Source: an uncultured Flavobacteriales bacterium (GTDB lineage: Bacteria > Bacteroidota > Bacteroidia > Flavobacteriales_D > Sanyastnellaceae). From it: a DNA stretch of 47,847 bases. The translations under genes were made by a program, and so were the position numbers. Of this stretch, positions 18,244-40,623 are shown piece after piece. Location: the NCBI GenBank assembly GCA_913041135.1, contig CAJWIF010000006.1, positions 1 through 47,847 of the forward strand. Reading direction: 5' to 3'. Within the stretch, counting starts at the first letter, position 1; the number at the start of each line of letters is the position of its first letter. The notes under the pieces were generated by a model, which made no database searches, was not told the origin of the DNA, and saw nothing but the letters and a program-made list of their open reading frames with translations.

Positions 18244-20100
18244 TCAAGGGCAAGGCTGGTTGAAGGCTGTTAAAAGAATGAGCAAGTCTCCAATTGTGAT
18301 GTTGCCATCACCGTTTAAATCGTTTGGACACGGGTCATCAGTTGGCAACAGAACACATAGCAATAAATCAGCATCCCATACGGTCCCAAAACCGCACATC
18401 CCAGGGTCGGTATGGCAGCTAAAATCACAACTGCCGTCATCCTCCATGGCCACGTCATTGTAGTTGCAAGCCTCTTCATACGTACAGCCCAAACAAGGCT
18501 CAGGACAGTCCGCAGTGAAAGGATAGAAAAAGCCGCCGTTTTCGATCACAACGATGTGCTCATCCAAAGCCACATCGTAGAGCGCATTGACAATTCCTGA
18601 AGGCCAGGCTACCACTACAGAATCGATTGCCATTGCACTGCCCAAACCAAAGTGCTCCCACGCGCTGTTCTGCCCAAGGTAACTTTCACCTGCGAATCGG
18701 ACATGGTATTGCATTTCTCCGTCTGCCCACACATATATCTTCGCTCCGATTCCATCATAATTGCTCACAGTGCCTTCCGTCGTCACTTTGATCCAATGGT
18801 TTTCGTTGGGAGTTCCTTGCAGCATTTGAGCATATTGACCAACACGGTTTGAGACCAAGTCGGGAAAACCATCCATATTGAAGTCACCCACAGCCGTGGC
18901 AAAGGACAAAACATTGTTGTCTGAGAAATCCGACCCCGCGGTCGTAAAAGCTCCTCCATCATTGTAAAAAAGCCGATCGGGGTGGTCTGAATAAACCGAC
19001 ATCACTTCCGGATAATTCGTGAACACGCTGAACCCTGTGGCAACATGCAAATCTTCGTAGCCATTGTTGTCAACGTCCAACCAATTTGCTCCCCAACACA
19101 CATCGTTGACTTGGACACTGTCATTTGGCGTGAAGTCTAAATCCGGATGCTCAATGGAAAAATCACCTTCATCATTCAAGAGCAGCCAATTTCCGTCTTC
19201 AGCAAACGCCGTCAAATAAATATCCTGGTACCCATTGTGATCGAAATCAGCAACCGAACCTGACATGCAGTTGATCATGATATCCAGGCCAAAATCACTC
19301 GCACTTTCCTCAAAAGCACTCATGGCATTCGGAGGCTGCTGTTCGTAGAACTGATTCGCATAGATCGTACGATCTCGAATGATGTGCAAATCAAGTAAAT
19401 CGTCTTCATTGAAATCCACCCACACACTTTGAAAGCTCTGGATTCCAAATTCAGTCACACCTTCCTCTTCAGCCACATCTGAAAAGATGGTATTCCCTAA
19501 ACTCAAGCTGCCCAAATTTCGATAGAATTCATTGAACGGCACATCATCCGTTGCAGACGTATAGTTTGATATGTGCAAATCCAAAAAGCCATCCGTATCG
19601 TAATCTCCGAAAGCCGCCCCGTAACTTTTGGAAGGATATTGATCCAACCCTGATGCACTGGCAATTTCAGTGAAACCCGCATTTCCATTGTTGAGATAGA
19701 AGCGATTCGGAGCCAATCGATACCCGACAAACAAATCCCGATCTCCGTCATTGTCGATGTCACCCCAAAGCACCATCTTGGCCTCATAGGGATGACTTGG
19801 TAAGTTGAGGTCGACAGGAATAAACCCCGCTCCCGTGCCTTGATAAAACTTCAAGTCGCCTTCAAAATTGGCAAAGGTCAGGTCGTCGATGTAATCACCC
19901 GTGAAATCTACAAAGCTCACACCCGCACCCAAATACCCTCCAAAGTGATTCGTTTCCAACGCCAACTGGCTGCTGACGTCAACCAACTGTGAAAACGCAA
20001 GACTCGGCAAAAACACCAAAGCCAGCAGCAATTGTGTCATCAAGGTGCTTTCGGATAGCGAAAGAATCCCTTTTGTTGCCAAATGAAAGGGGGATTTCAT
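18244..20100 (-). CDS. Secreted FG-GAP/VCBS repeat protein with ASPIC/UnbV domain and dockerin-like C-terminus (paralogue 1)
   Basis: Exported CRTAC1-like protein of 618 aa. The start at 20100 overlaps the stop of the upstream paralogue as ATGA, implying translational coupling. It supplies a basic n-region before the hydrophobic segment ending in SLAFSQ. About seven FG-GAP/VCBS blade motifs follow (DIDNDGDRDL, DYDTDGFLDL and similar), each a Ca2+-binding D-x-D-x-D-type loop in a beta-propeller. An ASPIC/UnbV domain lies at about 430-520 (YDGIGAK, WPSGIV). A cysteine-rich GCTY...DDGSC block (about 538-560) comes next. The end is a dockerin-like CPNDLNGDG...DLL segment closing with a cysteine. 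The substrate or partner is unknown; such propellers often mediate adhesion. Confidence 0.85.
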   Translation of the reverse strand: MKSPFHLATKGILSLSESTLMTQLLLALVFLPSLAFSQLVDVSSQLALETNHFGGYLGAGVSFVDFTGDYIDDLTFANFEGDLKFYQGTGAGFIPVDLNLPSHPYEAKMVLWGDIDNDGDRDLFVGYRLAPNRFYLNNGNAGFTEIASASGLDQYPSKSYGAAFGDYDTDGFLDLHISNYTSATDDVPFNEFYRNLGSLSLGNTIFSDVAEEEGVTEFGIQSFQSVWVDFNEDDLLDLHIIRDRTIYANQFYEQQPPNAMSAFEESASDFGLDIMINCMSGSVADFDHNGYQDIYLTAFAEDGNWLLLNDEGDFSIEHPDLDFTPNDSVQVNDVCWGANWLDVDNNGYEDLHVATGFSVFTNYPEVMSVYSDHPDRLFYNDGGAFTTAGSDFSDNNVLSFATAVGDFNMDGFPDLVSNRVGQYAQMLQGTPNENHWIKVTTEGTVSNYDGIGAKIYVWADGEMQYHVRFAGESYLGQNSAWEHFGLGSAMAIDSVVVAWPSGIVNALYDVALDEHIVVIENGGFFYPFTADCPEPCLGCTYEEACNYNDVAMEDDGSCDFSCHTDPGMCGFGTVWDADLLLCVLLPTDDPCPNDLNGDGNITIGDLLILLTAFNQPCP

Positions 20101-21923
20101 TCTGGACATTGGACGTCGAATTGAGCTAAAAACCACAACAAATCTGCCGTATTCACGACGCCATCCTCATTGATATCCGATGGGCAATCACTTACCGGTC
20201 CCGCTACACATTGGCCGATCAACGCGTCCCACACCGTTCCTTCACCACAGCTTATGCTACCGTCAAAACAACTGAAATCACAGGACCCGTCATCGGCGGT
20301 GGCCTCATCGTTGAAGTTACACGCTTCAACATAGGTGCAACCAAAGCAGCCAGCATCCAAACTAGGACAAGGACTCGGTTCAATGGAAGCTCCTTCGATG
20401 AGCACCAAGCTCTGCAAGGACAAGACATCATAATAGTGATCGACAATACCGGAAGGCCAATGCACGGTCAGCGAATCCAGAGTAATCTCTGTCCCTAGAC
20501 CAAAGGTCTCCCACCGGCTATTCTGCCCCATGTAGTTTTCACCGCAAAATGTCATGCGGTACGTCACTTCCCCATTCGAGTAAGCTCGGATTTTTGCCCC
20601 TATACCATCCCGATTGCTCTCTACTCCGACCAAAGACACCTTGAGCCATTTATTCTGATTCGGGATCCCTTCTAAAACTTGAGCATACTCACCAAATCTG
20701 TGCGAGACCAGGTCAGGGAAGCCATCCCCATTGTAATCTCCAACAGCCGTCGCAAACGACAACTGATTCGTTTGAAAGATTGCTGCTGTATCCTGAGAAA
20801 AGACGCCCTCTGAATTCCAATAGAAAGCATTGGGAACGTCTGGATATTGAGCGAACACTTGAGGGTACTGTGAGTAAACACTAAACCCCGTCGCCACATG
20901 CAAGTCATCCCACCCGTCGTTGTCCGCATCAAACCAATTCGCCGCCCAGGAGGTCAAATGCAAATCTGTACTGTCCCCTTCTTCCACTTGATGCGGAGTA
21001 AAAGAACCCGCGGTATTGTTTAGTAGAAAATTGCCTTCGAATAAGCCCGCCGCCAAGTACAAATCCAAATCATTGTCGCGGTCATAATCCGCTACCGACG
21101 TGGACATGCAATTGATCGCATAATCCAGTCCCCTTTCATTTGCTACTTCCGTAAATACGCCATCAACCTGCTCGTAGAACCTATTCTCAAAACACAGGCG
21201 GTCTTGAATTAAGTGCAGGTCAAGATTGCCATCCTCATTGAAGTCGACCCAATGTCCCTGAAAACTGTTATCCACGACCTCTCCCATTGGAGTGTCCAAC
21301 GTGACATCTTCAAACAGTCCCCCTCCCAAATTATGGTAGAGTTCATTGTGAGGATAATCCTGGCTGAGCACGTAATTCGCTACGAACAAATCCAGCAATC
21401 CATCCTTATCATAGTCACCAAAACTAGCGCCATAGCTCCGTTGATTTGTCTGTGCGATGCCACATACATCACTGATGTCAACGAGCGTCATTTCGCCGTC
21501 ATTTCGATACAACCGGTTGGGGGCCAACCTGTACGTTACAAATAAGTCTTGATCACCGTCGTTGTCTATGTCCGCCCATAAAATGCCTTTCGCCTCATTG
21601 AAATAGGTCGGCATGTTCAAGACCAACTCAGTAAAGCCCGTTCCGTTTCCTTCAAAGAATTTCAAAACCCCACCATAATGAGCAAAACTCAAATCATCCA
21701 GGCCGTCACCATTGAAATCCGCCATGCTCATTCCAGCTCCCCAATTCCCCCCTGTGTGGTCCGTGAAAAGATCCATTTGATTGCTGACATCGTTGAATTG
21801 GGTCCAACCCGATACGGGAAGAATGAGGGATACAACAAGCCAACCTCCCATCAAAAGCGACGGAACGCGTTTCAACCCGTTCAAGATGAAGTTCACTGTA
21901 GAAGGAGCAAAGACTTGTAACAT
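20097..21923 (-). CDS. Secreted FG-GAP/VCBS repeat protein with ASPIC/UnbV domain and dockerin-like C-terminus (paralogue 2)
   Basis: Paralogue of the proteins encoded on either side. The ATG at 21923 gives 608 aa; the frame extends one TTG further, to 21932. A basic region and hydrophobic stretch ending near SGWTQ form a signal peptide. FG-GAP loops include FNGDGLDDL, DIDNDGDQDL, DYDKDGLLDL, FNEDGNLDL and DADNDGWDDL. The ASPIC/UnbV domain has NRDGIGAK and WPSGIVD. The C-terminus has the GCTYVEACNF...DDGSC block, a CGEGTVWD linker and the terminal CPSDINEDG...DLL...C module. It is the first gene of a two-gene unit, since the next paralogue starts within its stop codon. A shared promoter-like element lies 37 nt upstream of the ATG. 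Confidence 0.85.
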   Translation of the reverse strand: MLQVFAPSTVNFILNGLKRVPSLLMGGWLVVSLILPVSGWTQFNDVSNQMDLFTDHTGGNWGAGMSMADFNGDGLDDLSFAHYGGVLKFFEGNGTGFTELVLNMPTYFNEAKGILWADIDNDGDQDLFVTYRLAPNRLYRNDGEMTLVDISDVCGIAQTNQRSYGASFGDYDKDGLLDLFVANYVLSQDYPHNELYHNLGGGLFEDVTLDTPMGEVVDNSFQGHWVDFNEDGNLDLHLIQDRLCFENRFYEQVDGVFTEVANERGLDYAINCMSTSVADYDRDNDLDLYLAAGLFEGNFLLNNTAGSFTPHQVEEGDSTDLHLTSWAANWFDADNDGWDDLHVATGFSVYSQYPQVFAQYPDVPNAFYWNSEGVFSQDTAAIFQTNQLSFATAVGDYNGDGFPDLVSHRFGEYAQVLEGIPNQNKWLKVSLVGVESNRDGIGAKIRAYSNGEVTYRMTFCGENYMGQNSRWETFGLGTEITLDSLTVHWPSGIVDHYYDVLSLQSLVLIEGASIEPSPCPSLDAGCFGCTYVEACNFNDEATADDGSCDFSCFDGSISCGEGTVWDALIGQCVAGPVSDCPSDINEDGVVNTADLLWFLAQFDVQCPE

Positions 21924-21960
21924 ACACCGCAAATAAAACGAATGAGGCCACCCCTAGCGA

Positions 21961-21999
21961 GGTACTTAAAAATAACCTATTCCATTGATAATACCTAAC
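21961..21999 (-). promoter_or_regulatory. Conserved promoter-like element upstream of FG-GAP paralogue 2
   Basis: Read on the minus strand, this holds GTTAGGT, then TATC, then after 12 nt TATTTTTAA. The same pieces at the same spacing occur upstream of paralogue 3. TATTTTTA resembles the Bacteroidota -7 box (TAnnTTTG), and TTAGG, which starts 24 nt before it, could serve as a -33 box. The element ends 37 nt before the ATG. Confidence 0.5.
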
Positions 22000-22046
22000 T
22001 TATAAAAACAAACAGCCAGCTAACAATACGAAATCACGCGTGAAAT

Positions 22047-23849
22047 TCAATTGGGACACCATGTCGCAAAAGACAAAAGCAGCAGCAATAAATCTTCAAT
22101 ATTGACGACGCCGTCCCCATCCACGTCTGACGGACAATTCTCAACGCATTGCTGCATCGTCTCATTCCACACAGTGCCGTTTGCACACACATTGTCATCG
22201 AACCAACAGGAAAACTCACAAGAGCCGTCATCGTCTTGAGCGTCCGCGTCATAGTTGCACGCAACTGTGTACGTGCACCCTGCGCAACTGCCTTGACATT
22301 GAGTCCCTGTCTCTCCTTCTGTGATTACTATACTCTGATTCGCCGAGACCGTATGGTAAACGTCCACAATTCCTGAGGACCATTGGACCTCTATTGAATC
22401 AACCTCCGTCTCAACGCCCAAACCAAAGTGCTCCCAACGGCTATTTTGACCGAGATAATTTTCTCCGCAGTACGTCTCACGGTAAAACGGAACACCATCG
22501 ATCCAGAGCTCCAATTTGGTTCCTACACCATCCCGGTTGCTCAAGGTGCCTACGGGTCGAATTTTAATCCAACCGTTCTCATTGGGTGTGCCGCTCCAAA
22601 CCTTAGCCGTCTCACCAATACTATGAGAAACCAAGTCGGGGAACCCGTCTTGATTAAAGTCCCCTGTAGCCGTGGAAAAGCCAAGAGACGAACTCTCATC
22701 AAACGTGCCGTCTTCGGCGGACAATCCGCCCATTTCATTCATGAAAAGTGCGTCATACGCATTGGGATACTGAAAAAGCACACTTGGGTAGTTCGTGAAG
22801 GCTGCAATTCCTGTCGTGACATGCAAATCCTCCCAGCCATTGCAATCAACATCCATCCAACTCGCAGCCCAACACGTTTCATTCATTACAAGGTCCGGGT
22901 TGTCATTCAGGAAGTATGCACCCACTCCATTGTTCTCAAAAAAAACATTGCCTTCAATCCCTCCGCTTACAAAAAGATCTAGATCACCATCGCGATCGAA
23001 ATCACAGGGACTCGTTGACATGCAATTGATCCCGACATCCAAACCGATCTCACTCGCTATTTCTTGAAATTGACCTTCACCATTGACCGTGCTATTTTGA
23101 TAGAATAGATTCGGATAAATCTCGCGGTCTCGAATGACGTGCAAGTCCAATGTCCCATCGCGGTCATGGTCCATCCATTGTCCTTGGAAGGATTGGAGCC
23201 AATCGCCCCCCAAACCCATGTCAGAGGTGACATCTTGAAACAAGCCTCCACCCAAGTTTCGATACAACTCATTTCCAGGCAGGTCTGACGAGTAAGAATA
23301 ATTTGCTATGAACAAATCAAGTAAGCCGTCATTATCGTAATCTCCATAACACGCACCAAAGCTCCTACGGTTGTCTTGGGCTATGCCACACGACGCACTC
23401 ACATCAAGCATCGCAAGGTTGCCTTGATTGATATAGATCTTATTCGGGGCCAACCGGCAGGTCACTAACAAGTCTTGATCTCCGTCGTTGTCAATATCAG
23501 CCCACAAAATCGCCTTGGACTCTACTGCAGGAAACTCTAGCTGAAGCTCTATTTCTTCAAAGCCCATACCTGTGCCTTCATAAAATCGAAGTAAACCATT
23601 GTGATGGCCAAAACTCAGGTCGTCTTTCCCGTCCCCATTGAAATCAGCAAAGCTCAATCCTGTACCCAAGTATCCTCCTGTGTGATCTGTTTGAATCATC
23701 AAGGCATCCGATACTTCTACCAACTGTGTCAAACCTAAAAAAGGAAGCATTACAGCAACGCAAAACAAGCATGACTTCTGAAGCCAAGAAGTTCTGCCAT
23801 TCTCATTCAAAAGGACGTGAAGGCGTTCAGTAAATACGAAATGCAGCAT
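22047..23849 (-). CDS. Secreted FG-GAP/VCBS repeat protein with ASPIC/UnbV domain and dockerin-like C-terminus (paralogue 3)
   Basis: Third tandem paralogue, 600 aa from an ATG at 23849. The signal peptide has a basic/polar n-region of about 25 residues, then a hydrophobic core ending in LGLTQ. FG-GAP loops include FNGDGKDDL, DIDNDGDQDL, DYDNDGLLDL, DHDRDGTLDL, DFDRDGDLDL and FNQDGFPDL. The ASPIC/UnbV domain has NRDGVGTK and WSSGIVD, the latter changed from the usual WPSG. The C-terminus has the GCTYTVACNYD...DDGSC block, a CANGTVWN linker and the terminal CPSDVDGDG...DLL...C module. It has its own promoter-like element, 35 nt upstream of the start, and is followed by a 123-nt gap before paralogue 2. 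Confidence 0.85.
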   Translation of the reverse strand: MLHFVFTERLHVLLNENGRTSWLQKSCLFCVAVMLPFLGLTQLVEVSDALMIQTDHTGGYLGTGLSFADFNGDGKDDLSFGHHNGLLRFYEGTGMGFEEIELQLEFPAVESKAILWADIDNDGDQDLLVTCRLAPNKIYINQGNLAMLDVSASCGIAQDNRRSFGACYGDYDNDGLLDLFIANYSYSSDLPGNELYRNLGGGLFQDVTSDMGLGGDWLQSFQGQWMDHDRDGTLDLHVIRDREIYPNLFYQNSTVNGEGQFQEIASEIGLDVGINCMSTSPCDFDRDGDLDLFVSGGIEGNVFFENNGVGAYFLNDNPDLVMNETCWAASWMDVDCNGWEDLHVTTGIAAFTNYPSVLFQYPNAYDALFMNEMGGLSAEDGTFDESSSLGFSTATGDFNQDGFPDLVSHSIGETAKVWSGTPNENGWIKIRPVGTLSNRDGVGTKLELWIDGVPFYRETYCGENYLGQNSRWEHFGLGVETEVDSIEVQWSSGIVDVYHTVSANQSIVITEGETGTQCQGSCAGCTYTVACNYDADAQDDDGSCEFSCWFDDNVCANGTVWNETMQQCVENCPSDVDGDGVVNIEDLLLLLLSFATWCPN

Positions 23850-23884
23850 GACGCACAGATAGTCCGTGTCAGCTTCAATTCAGA

Positions 23885-23924
23885 GGTTATTTAAAAATAT
23901 AGCTTTTAACCGATACAACCTAAC
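23885..23924 (-). promoter_or_regulatory. Conserved promoter-like element upstream of FG-GAP paralogue 3
   Basis: On the minus strand it carries GTTAGGT, TATC and TATTTTTAA in the same order and register as the element before paralogue 2. The 12 nt between TATC and TATTTTTAA differ in sequence but not in length. It lies 35 nt upstream of the ATG, consistent with a promoter giving a short leader. Confidence 0.5.
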
Positions 23925-24064
23925 GCTTGACCCTCTCAGCATCAGTAAAATATGGATTCCTATCCTCAGCTCTACAAACAAACTCTACCCAGCTCAATTC
24001 ATTCTGAATAATCGCGAAGCATGACCCGAATACATCTTCACGCAAAAGCTAAAATAATGTCTAT

Positions 24065-24096
24065 AAAAAAAGGACCCAGCAAACGCTGGGCCCTTT
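24065..24096 (-). terminator. Intrinsic terminator of the 1557-aa protein gene
   Basis: On the minus strand a 12-bp stem (AAAGGGCCCAGC paired with GCTGGGTCCTTT, one G-T pair) with a 4-nt loop is followed by a seven-T run. It starts 27 nt after the stop codon. The GGGCCC core resembles the hairpin at 14971-15006. Confidence 0.85.
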
Positions 24097-24122
24097 CCAT
24101 AAAGATCGTATTGATCAGAAGC

Positions 24123-27100
24123 TTATTCGCAAATCGTACCGAATGCACCCAAGAATTGGAGCAAGTCAGCCGTAGTTACAGAACCGTCTTCGTTCAAGTC
24201 AGCAGGACAAGGATTCGAAAGATCGAATTCACAAGACCCGTCGTCATTACCTGCGTTGGCATCATAGTTTGATGCATCAGCATAGGTACAACCAGCACAA
24301 TCATCGAAGATGCAATCTTCAAGGTCGAGGATGTTCGCTGTGTCATCATAGTTACATGCACAAGCAATATCGCAACCTTCGATACAGTTCTGACCACCCG
24401 TCGAAACGTATGCAGGACCGTATAGCTCACCACCGGTAATCACACCACCGAATACTCCGGTAATGGACCAAGATGGCTCACTGTTGAAGACATCATCACC
24501 TGATGTCAAGATGTAACATCCGTCAGCCAAGCAATACGTTTCTTCAGCAAAGCTGCCTTCAGTCAAAGACGTCTGGATTACTGTGTTGCCGTCCAAGTCC
24601 GTGATGTGAACATCACAACCAGACCAGCCATCACCAAACGAATCATTCATCGTGATCGTGATGCATGAACCATAGCAGCAAGAACCGTCTTCAATGGTCG
24701 CCTCAGGGTCAAAATCACACGCTGTTACGTCCATACAACCAGCACAAGTTTCGTACTCGCAAGTACCATTCTCGTCTGTAGCCTCAGGGTCATAGTTACA
24801 AGCAACTTCTTCCATACAGCCACATGTTACATCACCCAATCCGAATGGATAAGATTCTGTCACCAAGCTTCCAGCGGCACCGCCTTCAGCCAATGTGTTT
24901 GTTCCATCTGTTACACTCCAAGACTGCTCTTCAGACCAAAGGAATGCTCCAGTGAAGGCATAAGAGTAGCAACCTGGATCTAAGCACAATACGTCCAGAC
25001 CAAATTCAGCTCCGTCGTAGTTGTCTTCGTCAATGATGAACATCGCATCATCAATCGCACCGGCAGTAACACTGTTACCCGCTGCATCGAATACTTCGTA
25101 TCCACCAGTAGAACCGCTGTTACCACCTGTCCATCCGTCACCGAATGCATCATACATGTTGATGACCAAAGCAACTCCGTTAGGGTTGGCATCACAAGCA
25201 CATGAAGTGTACTCACAATCGTCAGAATCAATGTTCGCCTCAGGGTTGTAGTTGCAAGCAACGTCAACGAAGCAACCATAGATAGCTTCTTCACACTCCA
25301 TTTCAATTTGGAACGAACCACCACCATCATAAATACCATCCAAGTCGTATCCGACATATACATAGTAAGTCATAGCAGGATCCGAAACAAACTGAACAGC
25401 TGCGTCATCTTGATCAAAGAAACCACAAGTGTCGAAGCTTCCGTCGCTGATCGCAACTGAGCCGTCTACCTGGTTCACACACGAGTAGTCTCCACAGTCA
25501 GCTGTAGCCGAGCTATAGACATGCAATCGCGTGTCAATCACAGAACCACACGTGTTAATCGAGTGCAATTCGCCGGTTCCGGCAAACGTGTACCACACAC
25601 CTTCATATGCTGGGAACGTCAATTCTGATGTTCCGTCTTCAGCAGCTGTTCCAGTAGTAGAACCACCTGTACCAGCATATGTTACTCCTGCCAAAACTTC
25701 GTTTCCGTTGAAATAGATCGTTGCAGTTGCACCGTTCCATCCATCGCCATACGAGTCAACACCTACGAATGTGAAGTCACCTTCAGCCATACCACAAGCC
25801 CACTGGCCTGTTGTAGCAGCACCTTCGAAGACAGTGCCTTCAGCATCCGTCAAAGACCATGTGATTTCGCTATCCCATGAACCACCTCCTACGATGATGT
25901 AAGCAGCGTTCTCACCTGCAGCACAAGGAGCACATACAACATCAGGGAATCCTGTGTTGGTGGCACCACCCATTGAACCTGTAACAACTTCTCCACATGG
26001 AAGATCTGCAGCATCAGCGCACAAGTCATTCTCTGGAACTTCAGAGTACATGCAAGTACCATCGTCTTGGTTAGCCAAGGAATCGTAGTTGTCAGCCGCA
26101 GCATCCGTGCAACCCAAGAAGACACCTTGAGTTGTGAATTCAAATTCACCACACGTTTCAGCGTCAGTAGTACCTACAGCAAAGTAGTAATCTGTATTTG
26201 GCTCCAACGTGATGAAGGATTCAATTGAACCAGCACAAGTGCCCGTGAAATTGCAACCTACATACGTAGTCAAAGCGTCACAGTCACCTCCAGCCAAGTA
26301 AATGGTCAAGGTCAAGTCTCCAGAAGTAAGGTTCGTTGCGTCGAAGAAGAACGTATCGAAATCTTCACCTGAAACTGCATCCGTGCTGTTAAACGTGAAC
26401 CAAACCGCATAGTTGGTACCTCCAAAGCTAGGAATAGCCGTTGGTGACGCACAGCAGTTCGTACCTGTAAAGGTTACGTTGTCGATTTGAGGAGTCGCCT
26501 CAGCGCAAAAGTCATTGCTTGGAATCTCATCACAAGCAGCACATTCTACACTCAACAAAAACTCAGAACCAGTACTGAATGCACTGTACTTCGAAACATA
26601 GATGTAGTAGTCTTCACCTGTCGTTGCAATGAACGCTACACTTGACATCAATCCACACGCATCGTCGTTTCCAACGATCAATTCCAATTCACCTTCATCG
26701 TTGTACTGGAACACGTGCATTTTAGTATCACTTACAGGATCCGCAAATCCAGAAGTTGAAGTTGGTGTATCGCATGTGTTAGCGAAAACCTGCTGATCTG
26801 AAGCCGAGTTGAATTCGTACCATACACCTCCCGTAGTAATTGTTGTTCCGAGGAACAAGCCAGTAACACCTTCTTCATCCGATGCGTTGGCCAAGTTACC
26901 GTTTGAAAGTAATCCACAGGTAACTGCTTCAGCATCCTCGATGGCGTTGTTCGTTGGAGGACAGATACAAGATCCATCATCAACTGTAACCGAAATGTTA
27001 TAGTTGAAACAGTTCTCATCTGTACATCCTTCGAAATCACATCCACCCAACAAACCGAAGTCGATAAACCAACCACCGCTTGGGAATCCAACTGGAGGAG

Positions 27101-28796
27101 GCAATACACCGTAGTAATTCGATGCAATCTGGTCACCATATACCGTACCGAATTGGTCCGTCACGATCAGAGCGATTTCATTGTCAGCAGTTCCACCGCC
27201 AGAGCTGAGAACGTAGCATCCCAAAGGAATACAATGGAAGTCTGTTCCTACACCGTCGACGTAAAGATCCGCTTCATCCCAGTTTCCAGAGATGGATGTC
27301 TCACCGTCGTAGCTATCTACATAGTATGATGCTCCGTTCCAGCCATCGCCACCCAAGTCGTACATCTCAACATTCATAACATACGTACCTGCATCACAGT
27401 AAACACAAGAACCATCGTTCTGTTGAGTTGCTGTTGGATCATAGTTCGCAGCAGAAGTGTCCATGCAACCGATGCAACCGTAGTCACAATTGCCGTCGTC
27501 CAAGTTTGCTGTGTCGTCATAGTTACACGCTGCTGCATCCGTGCAACCTGGGAAAGCTGGCAAGCAAAAATCGCTTGCTTCGCTAGAACCAAACTGCGCT
27601 CCAGAAGCAAGTGACGTTCCGTTTGCATCTTCAACCGCATAAGAACCATTGCCATAAGAACAGCACATGCCGTCTCCGAATGAATCATACATCGTGAACG
27701 TGTAGCATGTTTCGCTTACACAAAGTTCAGCACCAACGCCACCGCCGCTAGCGATTATATTCCCTTCAGCATCTACCAAGTCCCAAGAGGTCTCAGAAGC
27801 ATAGTTGTCAGGATTTATAATTACAGTCACCGCTTCAAATGCACATGTGCCATCATCAGTCGTCGCTGCTGGATCAAAGTTACATGCAGTCGCGTTGGTG
27901 CAACCGACGTACTCACAAGAACCATCGTCCTCCGTAGCTGTAGAGCTATAGTTCGAAGCGCCAGAATCTACACAACCTGGGAAAGCACAAGCAGCAACCC
28001 AGTCAATTGGTGTGTAACCTGAGACCGAGCATGAACCAGAGCCATCTGAATCCATAACGATGTTGACAACACCGGTTAGAGATTCAATAAACGTTCCAGA
28101 GAGATCCTGGTTACCCGCTACAGATTCAAAACCTGTTGACCACAAGATGTTGGCCGTAGCCAAGTCCAATCCGTCATACACATAGATTTGATCCCAATAG
28201 TCCTCAATTTGACCTGAATTGATCAAAAAGAAGATTGATTGTCCCGCAGGAGCAACCGCGTAACCATAAGATACAAAGTTTTGAGATGACTCATAGCAGA
28301 AATTGCCAGCCCAATCACAACTAGGAAGTTCGCAAGAGCCATCGTCCTCACCCGCTTCAGGGTTGTAGTTGATCGCGTCCGCGTTCGTACAGCCTGGTAT
28401 TAAGACATCTCCGACACAAAAATCACCAGTAGAAGAAAATCCGGCACCAACACCTGAAGTAAGGTCATCACCACTGGTGTTTGTCATAGTCCAAGAAGTT
28501 CCACCATCACCATATCCGTCAGTTATCGCAAGGGTGTAACAACCATCAGCCAAACAGGCCGTGGCAGCAACACTTCCAAAGTCTGGTACTGATGCATAAT
28601 CTCCTTCAGCAGCAGAAGCTACTTCCGCTCCATCAGCGTTTGTAATCGACCAACCTGCCTCTTCTGGGTAGCTATCGAAAGTCAGTGACAAAGTCACTTC
28701 GTTGGCATCGCACTGCCCAAAGGCCGCGGGTGCTGAATAAAGGAAAAGCGCGAACATCGCTACGATGCTGCAACACTTTGTAAACGTGTTAAACAT
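24123..28796 (-). CDS. Large secreted protein with twelve GC...DDGSC cysteine modules and dockerin-like C-terminus
   Basis: Exported protein of 1557 aa with a signal peptide ending in PAAFGQ. I counted twelve short modules of the form GC-(T/M/V/D)-x(4-5)-(A/C)-N-(Y/F)-...-DDG-(S/T)-C, singly or in pairs along the chain. Longer beta-rich segments lie between them. Six of these carry a GDG(W)-type loop (DSYGDGWNG, YDAFGDGWTG, DSFGDGWSG and similar). A CUB-like segment with QIYVYDG lies at about 160-275, and two or three 'YYVYVG/YYIYVS'-type jelly-roll-like segments lie in the centre. The protein ends in CPADLNEDG...DLLQFL...C, the module shared with the FG-GAP neighbours. Enzyme motifs were not seen. 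A structural or adhesive surface role is inferred. Codon choice in the 3' part favours GGT, GCT, GAC and TTC, suggesting high expression. Confidence 0.8.
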   Translation of the reverse strand: MFNTFTKCCSIVAMFALFLYSAPAAFGQCDANEVTLSLTFDSYPEEAGWSITNADGAEVASAAEGDYASVPDFGSVAATACLADGCYTLAITDGYGDGGTSWTMTNTSGDDLTSGVGAGFSSTGDFCVGDVLIPGCTNADAINYNPEAGEDDGSCELPSCDWAGNFCYESSQNFVSYGYAVAPAGQSIFFLINSGQIEDYWDQIYVYDGLDLATANILWSTGFESVAGNQDLSGTFIESLTGVVNIVMDSDGSGSCSVSGYTPIDWVAACAFPGCVDSGASNYSSTATEDDGSCEYVGCTNATACNFDPAATTDDGTCAFEAVTVIINPDNYASETSWDLVDAEGNIIASGGGVGAELCVSETCYTFTMYDSFGDGMCCSYGNGSYAVEDANGTSLASGAQFGSSEASDFCLPAFPGCTDAAACNYDDTANLDDGNCDYGCIGCMDTSAANYDPTATQQNDGSCVYCDAGTYVMNVEMYDLGGDGWNGASYYVDSYDGETSISGNWDEADLYVDGVGTDFHCIPLGCYVLSSGGGTADNEIALIVTDQFGTVYGDQIASNYYGVLPPPVGFPSGGWFIDFGLLGGCDFEGCTDENCFNYNISVTVDDGSCICPPTNNAIEDAEAVTCGLLSNGNLANASDEEGVTGLFLGTTITTGGVWYEFNSASDQQVFANTCDTPTSTSGFADPVSDTKMHVFQYNDEGELELIVGNDDACGLMSSVAFIATTGEDYYIYVSKYSAFSTGSEFLLSVECAACDEIPSNDFCAEATPQIDNVTFTGTNCCASPTAIPSFGGTNYAVWFTFNSTDAVSGEDFDTFFFDATNLTSGDLTLTIYLAGGDCDALTTYVGCNFTGTCAGSIESFITLEPNTDYYFAVGTTDAETCGEFEFTTQGVFLGCTDAAADNYDSLANQDDGTCMYSEVPENDLCADAADLPCGEVVTGSMGGATNTGFPDVVCAPCAAGENAAYIIVGGGSWDSEITWSLTDAEGTVFEGAATTGQWACGMAEGDFTFVGVDSYGDGWNGATATIYFNGNEVLAGVTYAGTGGSTTGTAAEDGTSELTFPAYEGVWYTFAGTGELHSINTCGSVIDTRLHVYSSATADCGDYSCVNQVDGSVAISDGSFDTCGFFDQDDAAVQFVSDPAMTYYVYVGYDLDGIYDGGGSFQIEMECEEAIYGCFVDVACNYNPEANIDSDDCEYTSCACDANPNGVALVINMYDAFGDGWTGGNSGSTGGYEVFDAAGNSVTAGAIDDAMFIIDEDNYDGAEFGLDVLCLDPGCYSYAFTGAFLWSEEQSWSVTDGTNTLAEGGAAGSLVTESYPFGLGDVTCGCMEEVACNYDPEATDENGTCEYETCAGCMDVTACDFDPEATIEDGSCCYGSCITITMNDSFGDGWSGCDVHITDLDGNTVIQTSLTEGSFAEETYCLADGCYILTSGDDVFNSEPSWSITGVFGGVITGGELYGPAYVSTGGQNCIEGCDIACACNYDDTANILDLEDCIFDDCAGCTYADASNYDANAGNDDGSCEFDLSNPCPADLNEDGSVTTADLLQFLGAFGTICE

Positions 28797-29155
28797 TTGA
28801 TTTGGTTTTGGTTAGAATTTTCAGACAATTTGGTGGGCTCAACTTTTCAAGCCATTTGTAAACGCAAGACTCAACACTGACCGATCGATTTTGCTTTAAA
28901 GCCTTATACAGCAAGACTCGATCTGTTTTTCACTCACTCGAAACGCGGCGAAATTTTGTTAAGACGCACTTCGATTGGGGCTAAATGTAGCGCAAGCTTT
29001 TAATAAATCCAACAAATCACAACGGAATTAACCCGCGTCATCAAAAAGCTTCATCGCTTATTTAACACAATTCACGGACAATAGGCCTCGTTTTGCCGAA
29101 TGTTGTAGCATCGAGATTCTATGAACAACATACTTGATTATGAGTCCATTAGGAT
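28797..29155. other. 359-nt intergenic region upstream of the 1557-aa gene
   Basis: No credible ORF or RNA gene seen. It must contain the promoter and leader of the minus-strand 1557-aa gene and the 3' end of the next minus-strand gene. An imperfect inverted repeat (TGTTGT at 29101 with ACAACA ending at 29130) lies 25 nt after that gene's stop but lacks a T-run. Confidence 0.5.
28982..29013 (-). promoter_or_regulatory. Weak candidate promoter for the 1557-aa protein gene
   Basis: On the minus strand GTTGG is followed, about 19 nt later, by TACATTTA, which matches TAnnTTTG in all but the last base. The leader would be about 180 nt, long for this group, so the call is tentative. Confidence 0.25.
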
Positions 29156-32283: not shown

Positions 32284-32316
32284 TTGTATTCATGGCATCA
32301 ATGCATTGTATTTTTG
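32284..32316 (+). promoter_or_regulatory. Candidate promoter for the CHU_C-domain gene
   Basis: TATTTTTG at 32309-32316 matches TAnnTTTG exactly, with TTG at 32284-32286, 22 nt upstream. Transcription would begin almost at the ATG at 32323, so either the mRNA is nearly leaderless or this match is fortuitous. Confidence 0.3.
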
Positions 32317-32322
32317 TTTAGC

Positions 32323-34437
32323 ATGAAGTCGACGAGCACTTTACTCTTATTGGCACTCTTTATTGGAGGGAGCACGCACAGTGTTTGGGGGCAGCTAGAG
32401 TCCTCGATGATGTGCGTGGACGTCAACCAAGCAGGCAATGCATCCATCAACTGGACAGAAGCCGTGGACCCCATGGGTGTTTTCGCTTCCTACACGCTCC
32501 ATATTTTTGAACCCTCCAGCGGACTGGTATTGGACACCTATGTGATTGACAGCCCGACCGACCCCGTCAATCCCGGTTTTGTCAACACAACCTACAACGC
32601 CAACACCACGGAGCTGTGTTATTTTGTTGTGACCGAAGGACCAGCCGGTGTCTTTGGAACTTCTAGTGACACGCTTTGCAGCATTCACCTCACTGCTGAG
32701 CCTTCGCTTACGCCGGGGATGGCCTCTTTAGATTTCAATAGCCCTCGCATCGCCAGCGCCGCACCGGATGGTGGCGATATCGAGGTTCAACTCGAGGATG
32801 ACCCTGGGAGTTGGAGCACCATTGTTACGATTCCAGACAATGGGGGAATGATGAGCTATGAATATGAAGTCGAAGAATGTACTGGAGATCTGAATTTTCG
32901 TGTATTCCAAAGCAGCAGCTACATTCAGTGCGATCAAAAGTCCAATCAAGCAGGATCTTCTATCAGCGACGAGTTGGACCCAGACCCGCCTGTGATCTCC
33001 TACATCAACGTGGATAGCTTGTCTCAATTGGCAATCATTCATTGGGAGCCGAGTGAAGCCAGCGATTTAGCGGGCTACATTATTTACCGGTGCAATGGTG
33101 GATTTCAAATGGCCATCGATACAGTTTACAGCCCGGGCGCCACCTTTTATGTCGATCCAAGTTCCAATCCGGTCACCTACATCGAATCGTACAATGTAGC
33201 CGCGTTCGATTCTTGCTTCATTGGGAATGAACCCGACCCCGGCGCAGCTGGGGCCTATTGCGCCAGCTCCATTCATTTGAATGCGAGTAGACTTCCCTGC
33301 TCGGATGCAGCGAGTTTAGACTGGAATGGAGGTTTTAACATCGACGCCGAAATTGTTTCCATCGCTGTGTGGGCGGCTGAAGAATCCCCGACGGGAAGCG
33401 GCAATTGGAACAACGGACAGCTCCTCGAGACGCTGGACGCCAACGCCATCTCCTATGTGCACGAGGGCGCCACCTTCGGCTCAACGTTTCGTTACGATAT
33501 CGTAGCAACCAGCACGGATGGCGCGTTCATCCGTTCCAACCAACGATCAATGGACTTCTCTTACCCGGGAGCACCTGATCTGACTTCGTTGCGACGCGCA
33601 TCCGTCACCGACAGCGGAGGTGTGAATATCATCGTGGATTTAGACCCCTATTCCGAGGAAGTCCACACGTATATCCTTCAGCGAAAACGAGCAATCGATG
33701 AGCTCTTTTTTGATTTCGATGCACAGGAAGGCATCGGCGGCATGACCCTTCAATTTGCCGACTTGGATGCGGTTACTGACGAGATGAGCTACGCGTATCG
33801 TGTGCGTGTCGAAAATTACTGTGGGGATTCTGTTGGCATGTCCAATGCAGCCCAAACCATGCACCTTCAAGGCATTTCTGACACCCAATTGCTCAACAAC
33901 ACGATCAGCTGGACACCCTACTCAGATTTTCCTGGCAGCACCGCAGGCTACCGTATTTACCGTCGAAATCAGCAAGGCGCTGCCGCTGAAATGATCGCTG
34001 AAGTGCCATCACAGATTTTTATTTGGGAAGACGACGTGAGCAACCTGCTCTACAGTCCCGGAGACTTTTGTTATCTCATTGAGGCCCTGGATTCCGGTAC
34101 AGGCCCTTCGGGCGGCATGAATTACGCGCTTTCCAACGAAATGTGCCTCACTCAAGTGCCCGTTTTGTGGGTTCCGAACGCCCTCTTAGTCGGTGGGTAC
34201 AACGACGTTTTCTTGCCCGTCGTAAGCTTCGCCGATTTCGACCAGTATTTCATGCAAATTCACAACCGGTGGGGGGATATTATTTTCACCTCCAATCAAG
34301 TGGGATACGGGTGGAATGGGATGCACAAGGGAGCCTATGCGCCCGAGGGGAGCTACGGTTATTCCATCTCCATCCGCGATGGAGCCGGCCGAGTTTATGA
34401 GACCACGGGATTGGTTCACTTGCTCATTGGTGAATAA
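32323..34437 (+). CDS. Secreted protein with gliding-motility-type (CHU_C) C-terminal domain
   Basis: Exported protein of 704 aa. The ATG at 32323 begins a signal peptide ending in SVWGQ; the frame opens earlier with a TTG at 32284. The body has several fibronectin-III-like segments, seen as recurring 'GYIIYR' and 'GYRIYRR' strands preceded by W-x-P. The last about 90 residues match the CHU_C / gliding motility-associated C-terminal domain: IHNRWGDIIF, GWNG, then EGSYGYSISIRDGAGR. This domain usually directs type IX secretion. The normal SPNGDGxND box is replaced by a diverged segment (PNALLVGGYNDVF). Size and fold suggest an adhesin or surface protein; the target is unknown. Confidence 0.85.
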   Translation: MKSTSTLLLLALFIGGSTHSVWGQLESSMMCVDVNQAGNASINWTEAVDPMGVFASYTLHIFEPSSGLVLDTYVIDSPTDPVNPGFVNTTYNANTTELCYFVVTEGPAGVFGTSSDTLCSIHLTAEPSLTPGMASLDFNSPRIASAAPDGGDIEVQLEDDPGSWSTIVTIPDNGGMMSYEYEVEECTGDLNFRVFQSSSYIQCDQKSNQAGSSISDELDPDPPVISYINVDSLSQLAIIHWEPSEASDLAGYIIYRCNGGFQMAIDTVYSPGATFYVDPSSNPVTYIESYNVAAFDSCFIGNEPDPGAAGAYCASSIHLNASRLPCSDAASLDWNGGFNIDAEIVSIAVWAAEESPTGSGNWNNGQLLETLDANAISYVHEGATFGSTFRYDIVATSTDGAFIRSNQRSMDFSYPGAPDLTSLRRASVTDSGGVNIIVDLDPYSEEVHTYILQRKRAIDELFFDFDAQEGIGGMTLQFADLDAVTDEMSYAYRVRVENYCGDSVGMSNAAQTMHLQGISDTQLLNNTISWTPYSDFPGSTAGYRIYRRNQQGAAAEMIAEVPSQIFIWEDDVSNLLYSPGDFCYLIEALDSGTGPSGGMNYALSNEMCLTQVPVLWVPNALLVGGYNDVFLPVVSFADFDQYFMQIHNRWGDIIFTSNQVGYGWNGMHKGAYAPEGSYGYSISIRDGAGRVYETTGLVHLLIGE

Positions 34438-38103: not shown

Positions 38104-39000
38104 ATGCAACATCAACCGATCCGAGTGGGCGGGTTTTTCACCTGGGGGTTTTGCGGGATCATTTGTGGACTCTCACTCTTCGGGTGCGCACAATTGGATG
38201 AATCCGAAAAGCCAACCGAACAGTTTGTCGCCACAGCTTTCGAGCATGCGTTACCCCTGCAAGAAATTTGCGACCACATTCCGAACAATGCAGCCGCCAC
38301 CGACTCCACGTTGATGGCGGAACGCTATGTCGATCAATGGATTCGAGAACAAGTGGTCGTGCACGAAGCTGAAAATCGCCTGCCCGCGGATCTACAAACG
38401 TTTGAACGCGAAATTGAGGCCTACCGCAATGCGCTGCTGTTGCACCATTACAAAGAGCGCTATGTTCAACAGCGGATGGAGCAGGAGGTTCCTGAAGAAG
38501 AGGCGCTTGCTTATTATATGGCACATCAGGGTTTATTCATACTCATGGACTATGCTGTACGCGCCACCTTCGTGCATTTACCAGATGACGATGATCTCCA
38601 CTTGGATTTCATCAAGTCCGCCTTGATGGCCCCAGATACTGCGCCTTCTTTTCCCTTGCAACAATGGTGTGTCGAGCACGCCGCTGTCCACTCGTTGAAT
38701 CGAGAAACCTGGTGGTACCTCGAAGACCTTATTCAGGAGGTTCCTATTGAGTTGTATCGTGCCGAAAAACAACTCGCCAATAGGAAGCTCATCACGTTTG
38801 ATGCCGATGGCCGCAACTACTTCATTCGGTTTCATGAGCACGCACTGATCGATGGTGTAGCTCCCTTTGAAGTGGTTCAAGACCGCGTTTCCGAGCTGAT
38901 TTTACACGGTAAAAAACAAGAGCTCCTCCTCCAATTGGAAGAAGAGCTCTTGATTCAAGCTTGGGAAAAAGGGAGCATCCAGAAATTGATTTTGGAGTAG
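38104..39000 (+). CDS. SurA-like lipoprotein without recognisable PPIase domain
   Basis: Probable lipoprotein of 298 aa from the ATG at 38104, with a hydrophobic segment and LFGC lipobox (Cys28). The frame opens slightly earlier at a TTG (38059) inside the preceding gene, but that start spoils the signal peptide. The mature part is helical, acidic and glutamine-rich, and resembles the SurA N-terminal chaperone region (a YVDQWIREQVVVHEAENRL segment followed by LLLHHYKERYV). The HILV/GYHxI hallmarks of parvulin are missing. Its location between two PPIase genes suggests a chaperone partner for them. Specific function unproven. Confidence 0.7.
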   Translation: MQHQPIRVGGFFTWGFCGIICGLSLFGCAQLDESEKPTEQFVATAFEHALPLQEICDHIPNNAAATDSTLMAERYVDQWIREQVVVHEAENRLPADLQTFEREIEAYRNALLLHHYKERYVQQRMEQEVPEEEALAYYMAHQGLFILMDYAVRATFVHLPDDDDLHLDFIKSALMAPDTAPSFPLQQWCVEHAAVHSLNRETWWYLEDLIQEVPIELYRAEKQLANRKLITFDADGRNYFIRFHEHALIDGVAPFEVVQDRVSELILHGKKQELLLQLEEELLIQAWEKGSIQKLILE

Positions 39001-39022
39001 GCCTGAGCCGTCCGACTGAGTC

Positions 39023-39142
39023 GCACTGCAAGGCAAACACCGTCAGGAAGATCAATATATCCGATATCGTGACTACACCGTCGCAATCGCAATCCGCAGT
39101 TTCGAAGTCCATGTTTGCAGCGCCGAACGCTAACAAGTCGTA
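39023..39142 (-). pseudogene. Remnant of a secreted protein's dockerin-like C-terminus
   Basis: In the 183-nt gap before surA, the minus strand encodes a segment with CDCDGVV, DILIFL and a closing ALQCD. It aligns position by position with the C-terminal modules of the four secreted proteins at 18244-28796. An extra half-repeat (DLLAFGA) precedes it. There is no stop after the final cysteine and no signal peptide or body upstream: the frame is closed by a TAG at 39242-39244. I read it as the tail of a decayed or deleted cargo gene. It could alternatively be a very short live gene or a chance match. Confidence 0.5.
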
Positions 39143-39183
39143 ACGTGCATTCAAGGCATCTCGAAAGCGATTAACTTGCGTCC

Positions 39184-40623
39184 GTGAAATCAACGATTCA
39201 GAATCAACTCCGCAGGATGGCCTGGTGCATCCTGATAGCCGCTAACGCGACCAATCTACACGGCCAAGACTCGACCCTTGCGACCACTACCTCAGCCCTC
39301 AACTTCACTCCTTTAGACGCCATTGTCGCCGTTGTTGGCGATGGCATTCTTCTGGAAAGCGAGGTAGAAGCGCAAGCTTTTGCCTTGAAAGCGCAGCTCG
39401 CTCAACAGGGAAAGTCGGCAAACGAACTCAACGCTCTGCAGCGTTGCAATTTGCTAAACGAATTGCTGTTTCAGAAGCTCTTAGTGCACCACGCTAAGCT
39501 CGATAGCTTGGAGGTGTCCGATGGCGAGATCATGGATGAAATCGATCGCCGTCTCGCCTACTATATCCGGATGTTTGGATCTGTAGAGGCATTTGAAGCG
39601 GAATACGGACAATCGGTTAGCGAGTGGAAAGCTGAATTTGAGGACCCCGTTCGCGAACAGCTTCTCGCTGGTCGCATGCAGGGCCAAATCAACCAACAAG
39701 TCCGGGCTACTCCTGCAGAGGTACAGCAGTTATTTGCCAGCACACCTACTGACAGCCTCCCACTGATCCCAGAGGCTTTGCGGTATCGGGAATTGATGAT
39801 GCAGCCATCCATCACGGAAGCCCAAAAAGCGGGAGTTCGAAACAGCCTTGACTCGATTCGAACTCAAGTCTCCACGGGACAACTAAGCATGACAATGGCC
39901 GCTTCCCGCCACTCGGAAGACCCGGGCTCCAAATACAAAGGAGGCTGCTATGAAGATATCCCTCGTGGACAGTTCTTACCGGAATTCGAAGCAGCCGTTT
40001 TTGACACGCCAATCGGTGACCTTTCTCCAGTTTTTGAAACCGATTATGGGTTTCACTTCTTGCGTACCGTCGACCGTCGTGGCCAGGTTTTCTCTGCTTG
40101 TCACGTTTTGATGTCCGCCCAAATCGACCCGGTCGCACTCGAGAAAATGGGAGCGTCTTTCGATGAATTGATGCAGTCTTTGCGGGCCAACGAAATCTCC
40201 TTTTCAGACGCCGTATTGCAAAACTCTACACGGGAAAGCTCACGTAATCAAGGCGGTCTGGTGGTGAATCCTCGTGACGGCAGCACACTCTTCGGCTCCG
40301 ATGAATTGGACCCCAACTTGTTCTTCTTGCTCAACGGAATGGCTCCAAGCGAAGTTTCCGATGCTATTCAATTGTTAGACGATGAAGATCAAGGGTACTG
40401 GGTTGCCGTTCAGCTCGAAGAGCGCGTCCCGGCCCACCGAGCCAATCCCTCCCAAGACTTTGGCTACTTCCAAAACATCGTTGAAGCCTCCATGCGCGAG
40501 ACGCAGCTCAACGACTGGATGCGCAAAGCCATCAACGACACCTATGTGCGGATTGACGCTCCTTACGGAGACTGCACGTTCCAACAAAATTGGACGGCTG
40601 GATCCAGCATGGACCGTCGCTAA
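39184..40623 (+). CDS. surA: Periplasmic chaperone/peptidyl-prolyl isomerase SurA
   Basis: Exported foldase of 479 aa assisting outer-membrane protein biogenesis. The GTG at 39184 is the only start that retains a basic n-region plus hydrophobic core (signal ending in LHGQ); the first internal ATG leaves too little. The SurA N-terminal domain (about 38-170) begins with DAIVAVVGDGILLESEVE, the family hallmark. A parvulin domain at about 195-300 contains LRYRELMM, YKGGCYEDI and YGFHFLR. A second, more diverged parvulin-like region lies at about 302-410 (ACHVLM, NQGGLVV). It is the third gene of the foldase cluster. Confidence 0.9.
   Translation: MKSTIQNQLRRMAWCILIAANATNLHGQDSTLATTTSALNFTPLDAIVAVVGDGILLESEVEAQAFALKAQLAQQGKSANELNALQRCNLLNELLFQKLLVHHAKLDSLEVSDGEIMDEIDRRLAYYIRMFGSVEAFEAEYGQSVSEWKAEFEDPVREQLLAGRMQGQINQQVRATPAEVQQLFASTPTDSLPLIPEALRYRELMMQPSITEAQKAGVRNSLDSIRTQVSTGQLSMTMAASRHSEDPGSKYKGGCYEDIPRGQFLPEFEAAVFDTPIGDLSPVFETDYGFHFLRTVDRRGQVFSACHVLMSAQIDPVALEKMGASFDELMQSLRANEISFSDAVLQNSTRESSRNQGGLVVNPRDGSTLFGSDELDPNLFFLLNGMAPSEVSDAIQLLDDEDQGYWVAVQLEERVPAHRANPSQDFGYFQNIVEASMRETQLNDWMRKAINDTYVRIDAPYGDCTFQQNWTAGSSMDRR

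Follow-up and report, generated by a model that had tools for sequence, protein, structure and literature searches.

A dockerin-type module on exported proteins of an uncultured Flavobacteriales family, apparently in place of the type IX sorting domain

Introduction

Four adjacent genes on one strand of a contig from an uncultured Flavobacteriales bacterium encode secreted proteins that end in the same short stretch, bracketed by two cysteines. What is this module, and what could it do on exported proteins? The window considered here is the whole stretch of DNA that was analysed, 47,847 nucleotides long, and is part of contig C6 in a draft genome of 2.30 Mb, 95.35% complete (hereafter the source genome). 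An earlier sequence-only reading of the window had drawn attention to the module, and its claims are taken up below where the results bear on them.

The Module in the Window

The four minus-strand open reading frames (18244-20136, 20097-21932, 22047-23849 and 24123-28796) were confirmed and, as had been claimed, their products end alike: the final 31-32 residues align with zero internal gaps. The consensus tail is C-P-x-D-x-[ND]-x-D-G-(5)-D-L-L-x-x-L-x-x-F-(3)-C, in which C4, P5, D7, D11, G12, D18, L19, L20, L23, F26 and C30 are invariant; the closing cysteine, said to lie within two residues of the C-terminus, is found 1-2 residues before it. In its single-loop form the module occupies, always on the minus strand, the C-termini of protein 1 (18247-18339), protein 2 (20103-20195), protein 3 (22053-22145) and protein 4 (24126-24218), which score 66, 73.3, 69.3 and 70.3 bits, respectively, with a profile made from the four tails.

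Proteins 1 to 3 each combine FG-GAP/VCBS and UnbV_ASPIC domains (Pfam) with a signal-peptide-like start. They are tandem paralogs (51 and 46% identity to the first row of the alignment), so that the four window copies amount to two independent cases. Protein 4 is a secreted, cysteine-rich protein of 1557 aa with seven DDGSC-like motifs, in which the Pfam scan found no domain above cut-off. Vertical descent alone fits the shared tail of the three FG-GAP paralogs, but does not explain the unrelated carriers of the tail. The nearest relative of protein 3 (L063) is 91% identical over 454 columns, and the named relatives of the FG-GAP proteins come from uncultured, largely marine Flavobacteriales MAGs. 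Within flanks of 3 kb, three tailed genes in a row on the same strand were seen at 14 of the 74 related loci.

None of the four proteins matches a type IX secretion system (T9SS) C-terminal domain (CTD) in Pfam or NCBIfam at E<=1, in keeping with the earlier reading, and the CHU_C protein that it had pointed out elsewhere in the window is real. This protein (32284-34437, plus strand) is ordinary T9SS cargo with a type B CTD and serves as a comparison; it reaches 34.4 bits with CHU_C (cut-off 27) and 29.8 bits with TIGR04131, below the cut-off of 35.

A second cysteine-rich repeat, GCTYxxACNYxxxAxxDDGSC, accompanies the module both in the window (18247-28811) and in carriers genome-wide; a DDGSC-like motif occurs in 24/37 module proteins vs. 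7/154 other frames of at least 250 aa. In the FG-GAP proteins, as in some others, a third small conserved unit, CGxGTVWDxxxxxC, separates this repeat from the module. The conserved tail of protein 2 (20100-20342, minus strand) holds all three, the third unit being modelled as two short strands, and the order DDGSC repeat, CGxGTVWD hairpin, module is constant in 39 aligned tails.

The window also contains an orphan module-like stretch that lacks the first cysteine (39023-39097, minus strand), between two plus-strand genes. The intergenic region (38990-39200, minus strand) reads in a frame (38825-39241) that runs on without a recognisable gene, and is likely the remnant of a lost one. A similar orphan with a TGA was observed on the minus strand of C98 (C98:5283-5354).

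Spread Through the Source Genome

The four-tail profile finds 57 matches in the source genome at E<=10, the four window tails included, and reaches unrelated proteins, e.g., on C126 (E=1.2e-16) and C48 (E=8.8e-13). The recurrence of the module in this genome is far beyond chance. A 51-tail model, run on the contig stretches around the four-tail matches with a threshold of 15 bits, retrieved 42 frames, 2 of which were excluded from the count of positions as orphan remnants (window 38825-39241; C98, minus strand). The module ends at most 3 residues before the stop in 35 of the remaining 40 frames. The other five comprise C101, which is cut by the contig start, C33, where the module is internal, and C72, C85 (minus strand) and C3, where it lies near the N-terminus, no more than roughly twelve residues from where the signal peptide appears to end. 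The module had been described as terminal, which holds for these 35 frames and fails for the three copies near the signal peptide and for the internal one. Among the C-terminal copies, 13 have two loops in tandem and 22 have one.

The near-N-terminal copy of C72 is bracketed by cysteines, while those of C3 and C85 (minus strand) are cysteine-free; with two of the three devoid of cysteines, such copies may constitute a subtype with a role of its own. This cysteine-free version, of the NPDxxxDxxIxxxDLLxxL type, was also observed shortly after a signal peptide at a related locus (L122:6789-6953).

The sequence-only reading had proposed to ask whether the matches are always on proteins with a signal peptide. 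All 32 module proteins with an intact N-terminus have a signal-peptide-like start, vs. 51 of 123 other long ORFs (Fisher p=7.7e-11), under a rough rule that 41% of the controls pass, as does one of the orphan remnants; of ten T9SS-tailed proteins, nine pass it too. Domain scans of 37 module proteins, which omitted C135 and the C101 and C67 fragments, gave LTD, reprolysin, M43, S8 and CotH among the cargo types.

Relationship to Dockerins

The NCBIfam model NF041540, "GC-type dockerin domain-anchored protein" (dockerin_GC; about 67 positions, two loops, cut-off 29 bits), gives 25 matches in the source genome at E<=10. It exceeds its cut-off at two places, C98 (31.5 bits) and C88 (29.3 bits), and fits 8/37 module proteins at E<=0.001; weak matches were found in 4 of 14 control genomes, with zero over the cut-off. 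On the four window modules, about half of the profile is covered and the scores of 13.9-20.7 bits (20.0 for protein 2, 20.7 for protein 4) stay below the cut-off. PF00404 (cut-off 22.9) scores 13.0 bits on protein 1, does not list proteins 2-4, and exceeds its cut-off at only two places in the source genome (C98 and C75).

Against PDB sequences, a one-loop profile of 32 modules has 2y3n_B as its best match (E=2.3e-11), the best calmodulin standing at 0.0024. The first eight of the 60 rows listed are cellulosomal dockerin chains, some of which bear only enzyme names; calmodulin comes ninth, and calmodulins from that rank on outscore some other dockerins. With the corresponding two-loop profile, nine rows reach E<=0.01; eight of them are cellulosomal, calmodulin comes last, and 2y3n_B is again the best (E=2e-7). 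The loop D-x-[ND]-x-D-G of the window modules, followed by a D-L-x helix, is by profile nearer to dockerins than to other EF-hands.

The two-loop tail of a relative (L085) was predicted by AlphaFold with a pLDDT of 79 and a pTM of 0.62. Foldseek returned zero matches for this model at E<=0.001 and 18 rows at E<=10, all of them cohesin/dockerin entries (best E=3.7e-3, TM 0.76/0.83), and VIA-align superposed it on 2y3n_B with a Z of 10.3 and an rmsd of 1.4 over 58 aligned residues, other entries reaching a Z of 6.0 or less. For the one-loop window tail (pLDDT 79.8, pTM 0.33), confidence is local rather than global, and the model gave zero PDB matches better than E=2.

By profile and predicted fold, the two-loop versions are dockerins, nearest to 2y3n, that fit NF041540, and the four modules of the window are, by their profile scores, single-loop versions of the GC-type dockerin kind that fall under its cut-off. 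The description of the module as dockerin-like is therefore borne out by the PDB profile searches and by the predicted fold of the two-loop form. Its separation from dockerins is not, given that the same genome contains two-loop versions, two of them over the NF041540 cut-off. The kind to which the two-loop form belongs is already covered by NCBIfam; the window copies have one loop and score 13.9-20.7 bits. NF041540, whose name implies, as an annotation, a similar anchoring use, matches the two-loop modules of the source genome but has two loops where the four window modules have one. With type I/II dockerins (PF00404; 2y3n) the module shares the calcium-loop signature, profile matches and the two-loop fold; it differs from them in that 22 of the 35 C-terminal copies are one-loop, in its cysteine-bracketed ends, and in that no cohesin was found in the source genome.

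No paper was found in the open-licence literature for the name "GC-type dockerin," nor any title or abstract describing the module in Flavobacteriales. Nor did searches of that literature turn up the bracketed form with one loop, its amplification within a single family alongside the T9SS, or its exchange with T9SS tails.

The cysteines of the module come and go mostly in pairs. Among 42 distinct two-loop modules examined with a cysteine-blind model, 38 have both the outer and the linker pairs, three the outer pair only and one the linker pair only; in all 42 the outer cysteines are both present or both absent, and the linker has two or none. Many of these sequences are best matches of a four-cysteine profile, a sampling that favours complete cysteine sets. 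Among 90 distinct one-loop modules, 82 have both cysteines, four have neither and four have one (Fisher p=8.5e-5, uncorrected for kinship), the mixed four including both orphan remnants. In a mixed one-loop case (L052) and in the linker-only two-loop case (L048), a cysteine lies five residues before the loop, just beyond the tested range. Gain and loss in pairs suggests a disulfide clasp, in which one putative disulfide would join the ends of the module and another would lie within the linker. Dockerins are reported to be stabilised by a clasp of their N- and C-termini (PMC5934362), and the putative end-joining disulfide may, by analogy, be a covalent form of that clasp.

Exchange with the Type IX Tail

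The source genome carries SprA, and TIGR04183 exceeds its cut-off there at 72 places, so that the T9SS components that the earlier reading had suggested looking for do occur beside the module. Zero overlap was found between the frames with a four-tail profile match and the TIGR04183 frames of this genome. Together, these observations indicate an ordinary set of T9SS cargo from which the module proteins form a separate class. A plain T9SS CTD is ruled out by profile, since neither the four window proteins (at E<=1) nor any of the 37 module proteins (0/37 for TIGR04183 or TIGR04131 at E<=0.001) match one. On C71, a protein with a type A T9SS tail was also matched by Dockerin_1, at 16.5 bits against a cut-off of 22.9; looser dockerin-like stretches can hence share a protein with a CTD, and another dockerin-like kind may be present in this genome.

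Relatives of the FG-GAP proteins are encoded at 74 loci. Of these, 38 encode complete proteins that have the module at the C-terminus or close to it (one of them, L092, with 8 residues beyond it) and 30 encode complete proteins without it; the other 6 were left out because they run off the contig or locus (L078, L091, L093, L109 and L110) or are masked (L123). TIGR04183 matches 0/38 of the former vs. 24/30 of the latter at E<=0.01 (Fisher p=3.9e-13, uncorrected for kinship); one of the 38 weakly matches a T9SS-dependent family (0.0082). When the protein bodies alone are placed on a quick tree (73 rows), four tail changes are implied, all four counted as forced by well-supported branches; as two of them rest on the long, unsure rows C91 and L135, two independent exchanges is the safer count.

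The same alternation is found in a second family. Five proteins, all members of TIGR04312 (choice-of-anchor B), between them display both tails in each of two genomes: the two-loop module is carried by C75 of the source genome and C43 of genome G045 (NF041540 24.5 and 28.7 bits), and TIGR04183 over its cut-off by C124 of the source genome and by two paralogs on C9 of G045. Among 30 choice-of-anchor B loci sampled across the phylum, 2 have the module, 2 a T9SS CTD (by a small model of our own) and 26 neither; with the wrong frame evidently picked for some of the 26 (L166, L168 and L173), this sample adds little beyond the five TIGR04312 proteins. In the position where relatives have a type IX sorting domain, these proteins have the module, which, judging from these alignments and profiles, apparently replaces the usual tail. 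It shares with T9SS CTDs (type A, TIGR04183; type B, TIGR04131/CHU_C) its position in the same families and is exchanged with them in homologs, yet has zero profile matches to them and occurs shortly after signal peptides as well.

Distribution of the Module and of Cohesins

Across the Bacteroidota, the module was matched in 10 of 296 genomes at E<=0.001, with many matches only in the source genome and one other of the same family, and one or two in each of the other eight. Across the order, 49 of 150 genomes have a match, with 0 to at least 53 loops per genome. The Flavobacteriales family of the source genome accounts for 40 of these among the 41 of its genomes listed (the source genome included), vs. 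9/109 outside it (Fisher p=1.8e-26); the figure of 41 takes the listed zero rows to be sorted by kinship, as they appear to be, with the family genome G427 first. At least 20 loops are found in 29 of the 40 family genomes with a match, and 1 to 3 in each genome with a match outside. Another draw of 41 family genomes gave a two-loop profile match in 37 at E<=1e-6. Its occurrence is thus concentrated in a single uncultured family of the Flavobacteriales. The earlier claim that it is lineage-specific is supported as far as this concentration goes; 9/109 genomes of the order carry it outside the family. On a contig titled "Euryarchaeota archaeon" (L081, PBNL01000026.1), an FG-GAP protein of Flavobacteriales type bears the module; mislabelling or contamination of this MAG contig is the probable reason.

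Cohesin (PF00963) was not found in the source genome at E<=10. A profile of eight order-level cohesin stretches gave none at E<=1 in the source genome, G045, G337 or G379, one match in G373 (9.6e-4) and two in G313 (0.26 and 0.51). At E<=0.01, a cohesin was present in 15 of the 150 genomes of the order (family 6/41, outside 9/109). Cohesin presence does not follow the module across the order, and the co-occurrence of the two, raised as a check by the sequence-only reading, was found neither in the source genome nor as a link over the 150 genomes. A classical cellulosome is ruled out in the source genome by the absence of cohesin with both PF00963 and the order-level profile, which leaves a docking role without a known partner. 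Dockerin-bearing secreted proteins have also been proposed for the "planctosome" of freshwater Planctomycetes (PMC6461901), and dockerin enzymes with a CTD-bearing scaffoldin for Cloacimonadota (PMC8542988). Both systems comprise dockerin-bearing secreted peptidases and other proteins beyond classical cellulosomes, as is the case here, but with recognisable cohesins, none of which was found in the source genome.

Discussion

We lean toward reading the module, from its profiles and models, as an alternative anchoring or docking tail of dockerin type on Sec-exported proteins of this Flavobacteriales family. It would be a half dockerin (one calcium loop and a helix) or a full one (two loops), with ends closed by a disulfide and loops that presumably bind calcium. 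As an alternative to the T9SS CTD, it would retain its cargo within the envelope or at the cell surface through binding to a putative receptor. The outer membrane might be crossed by a route of the cargo's own, or in the company of a CTD-bearing partner. The nature of the cargo and the exchange with the T9SS tail point to a role in localisation. Docking is favoured over recognition as a T9SS CTD by the N-terminal copies and by the kinship with dockerins.

A new T9SS sorting signal, which the translocon would recognise and which would be either cleaved or kept, with glycan attachment as for type A and B CTDs, would accommodate the presence of SprA and 72 TIGR04183 places, the fact that in homologs the module takes the position of the CTD, and the strong C-terminal bias (35/40). 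It fits poorly with three copies located soon after the signal peptide (C72 bracketed, C3 and C85 minus strand without cysteines) and one internal, with a relationship to dockerins instead of CTDs, and with matches in only 10/296 Bacteroidota genomes; we regard it as a minority possibility. Still less probable to us is a purely structural cap, i.e., an end stabilised by calcium and disulfide against proteolysis and devoid of a partner. Paired cysteines at a terminal place, the failure to find a cohesin in the genome, and very diverse cargo with a DDGSC-like cysteine-rich repeat (24/37 vs. 7/154) would all suit a cap, from which, however, neither repeated exchange with an anchoring or sorting domain nor the conservation of L19, L20 and L23 beyond the calcium loop would be expected.

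That a loose motif caught ordinary internal EF-hands is very improbable, even though the loop is of EF-hand type and calmodulins appear from rank nine with the one-loop profile and last of nine with the two-loop profile. The best dockerin (2.3e-11) stands far above the best calmodulin (0.0024), 35/40 copies are C-terminal, and the amplification is concentrated in one family. Random EF-hands, named by the sequence-only reading as the finding that would overturn it, are ruled out by this position, this concentration and a profile ranking that puts dockerins first.

Concluding Remarks

An anchoring or docking tail of dockerin type could be part of something larger. It is conceivable, although we consider it rather unlikely, that a second surface-display system exists beside the T9SS, with disulfide-clasped half dockerins and full dockerins on tens of Sec-exported proteins and a receptor that differs from known cohesins and possibly carries the cargo through the T9SS. 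The question of what receives a dockerin where no cohesin was found, and that of how its cargo crosses the outer membrane, can now be addressed experimentally; the paired cysteines offer a simple handle, and the choice-of-anchor paralogs within one genome are natural controls. If the anchoring role is true, searches for T9SS cargo miss the module proteins, and dockerins, not the T9SS tail, would hold part of the surface proteome of an uncultured marine family.
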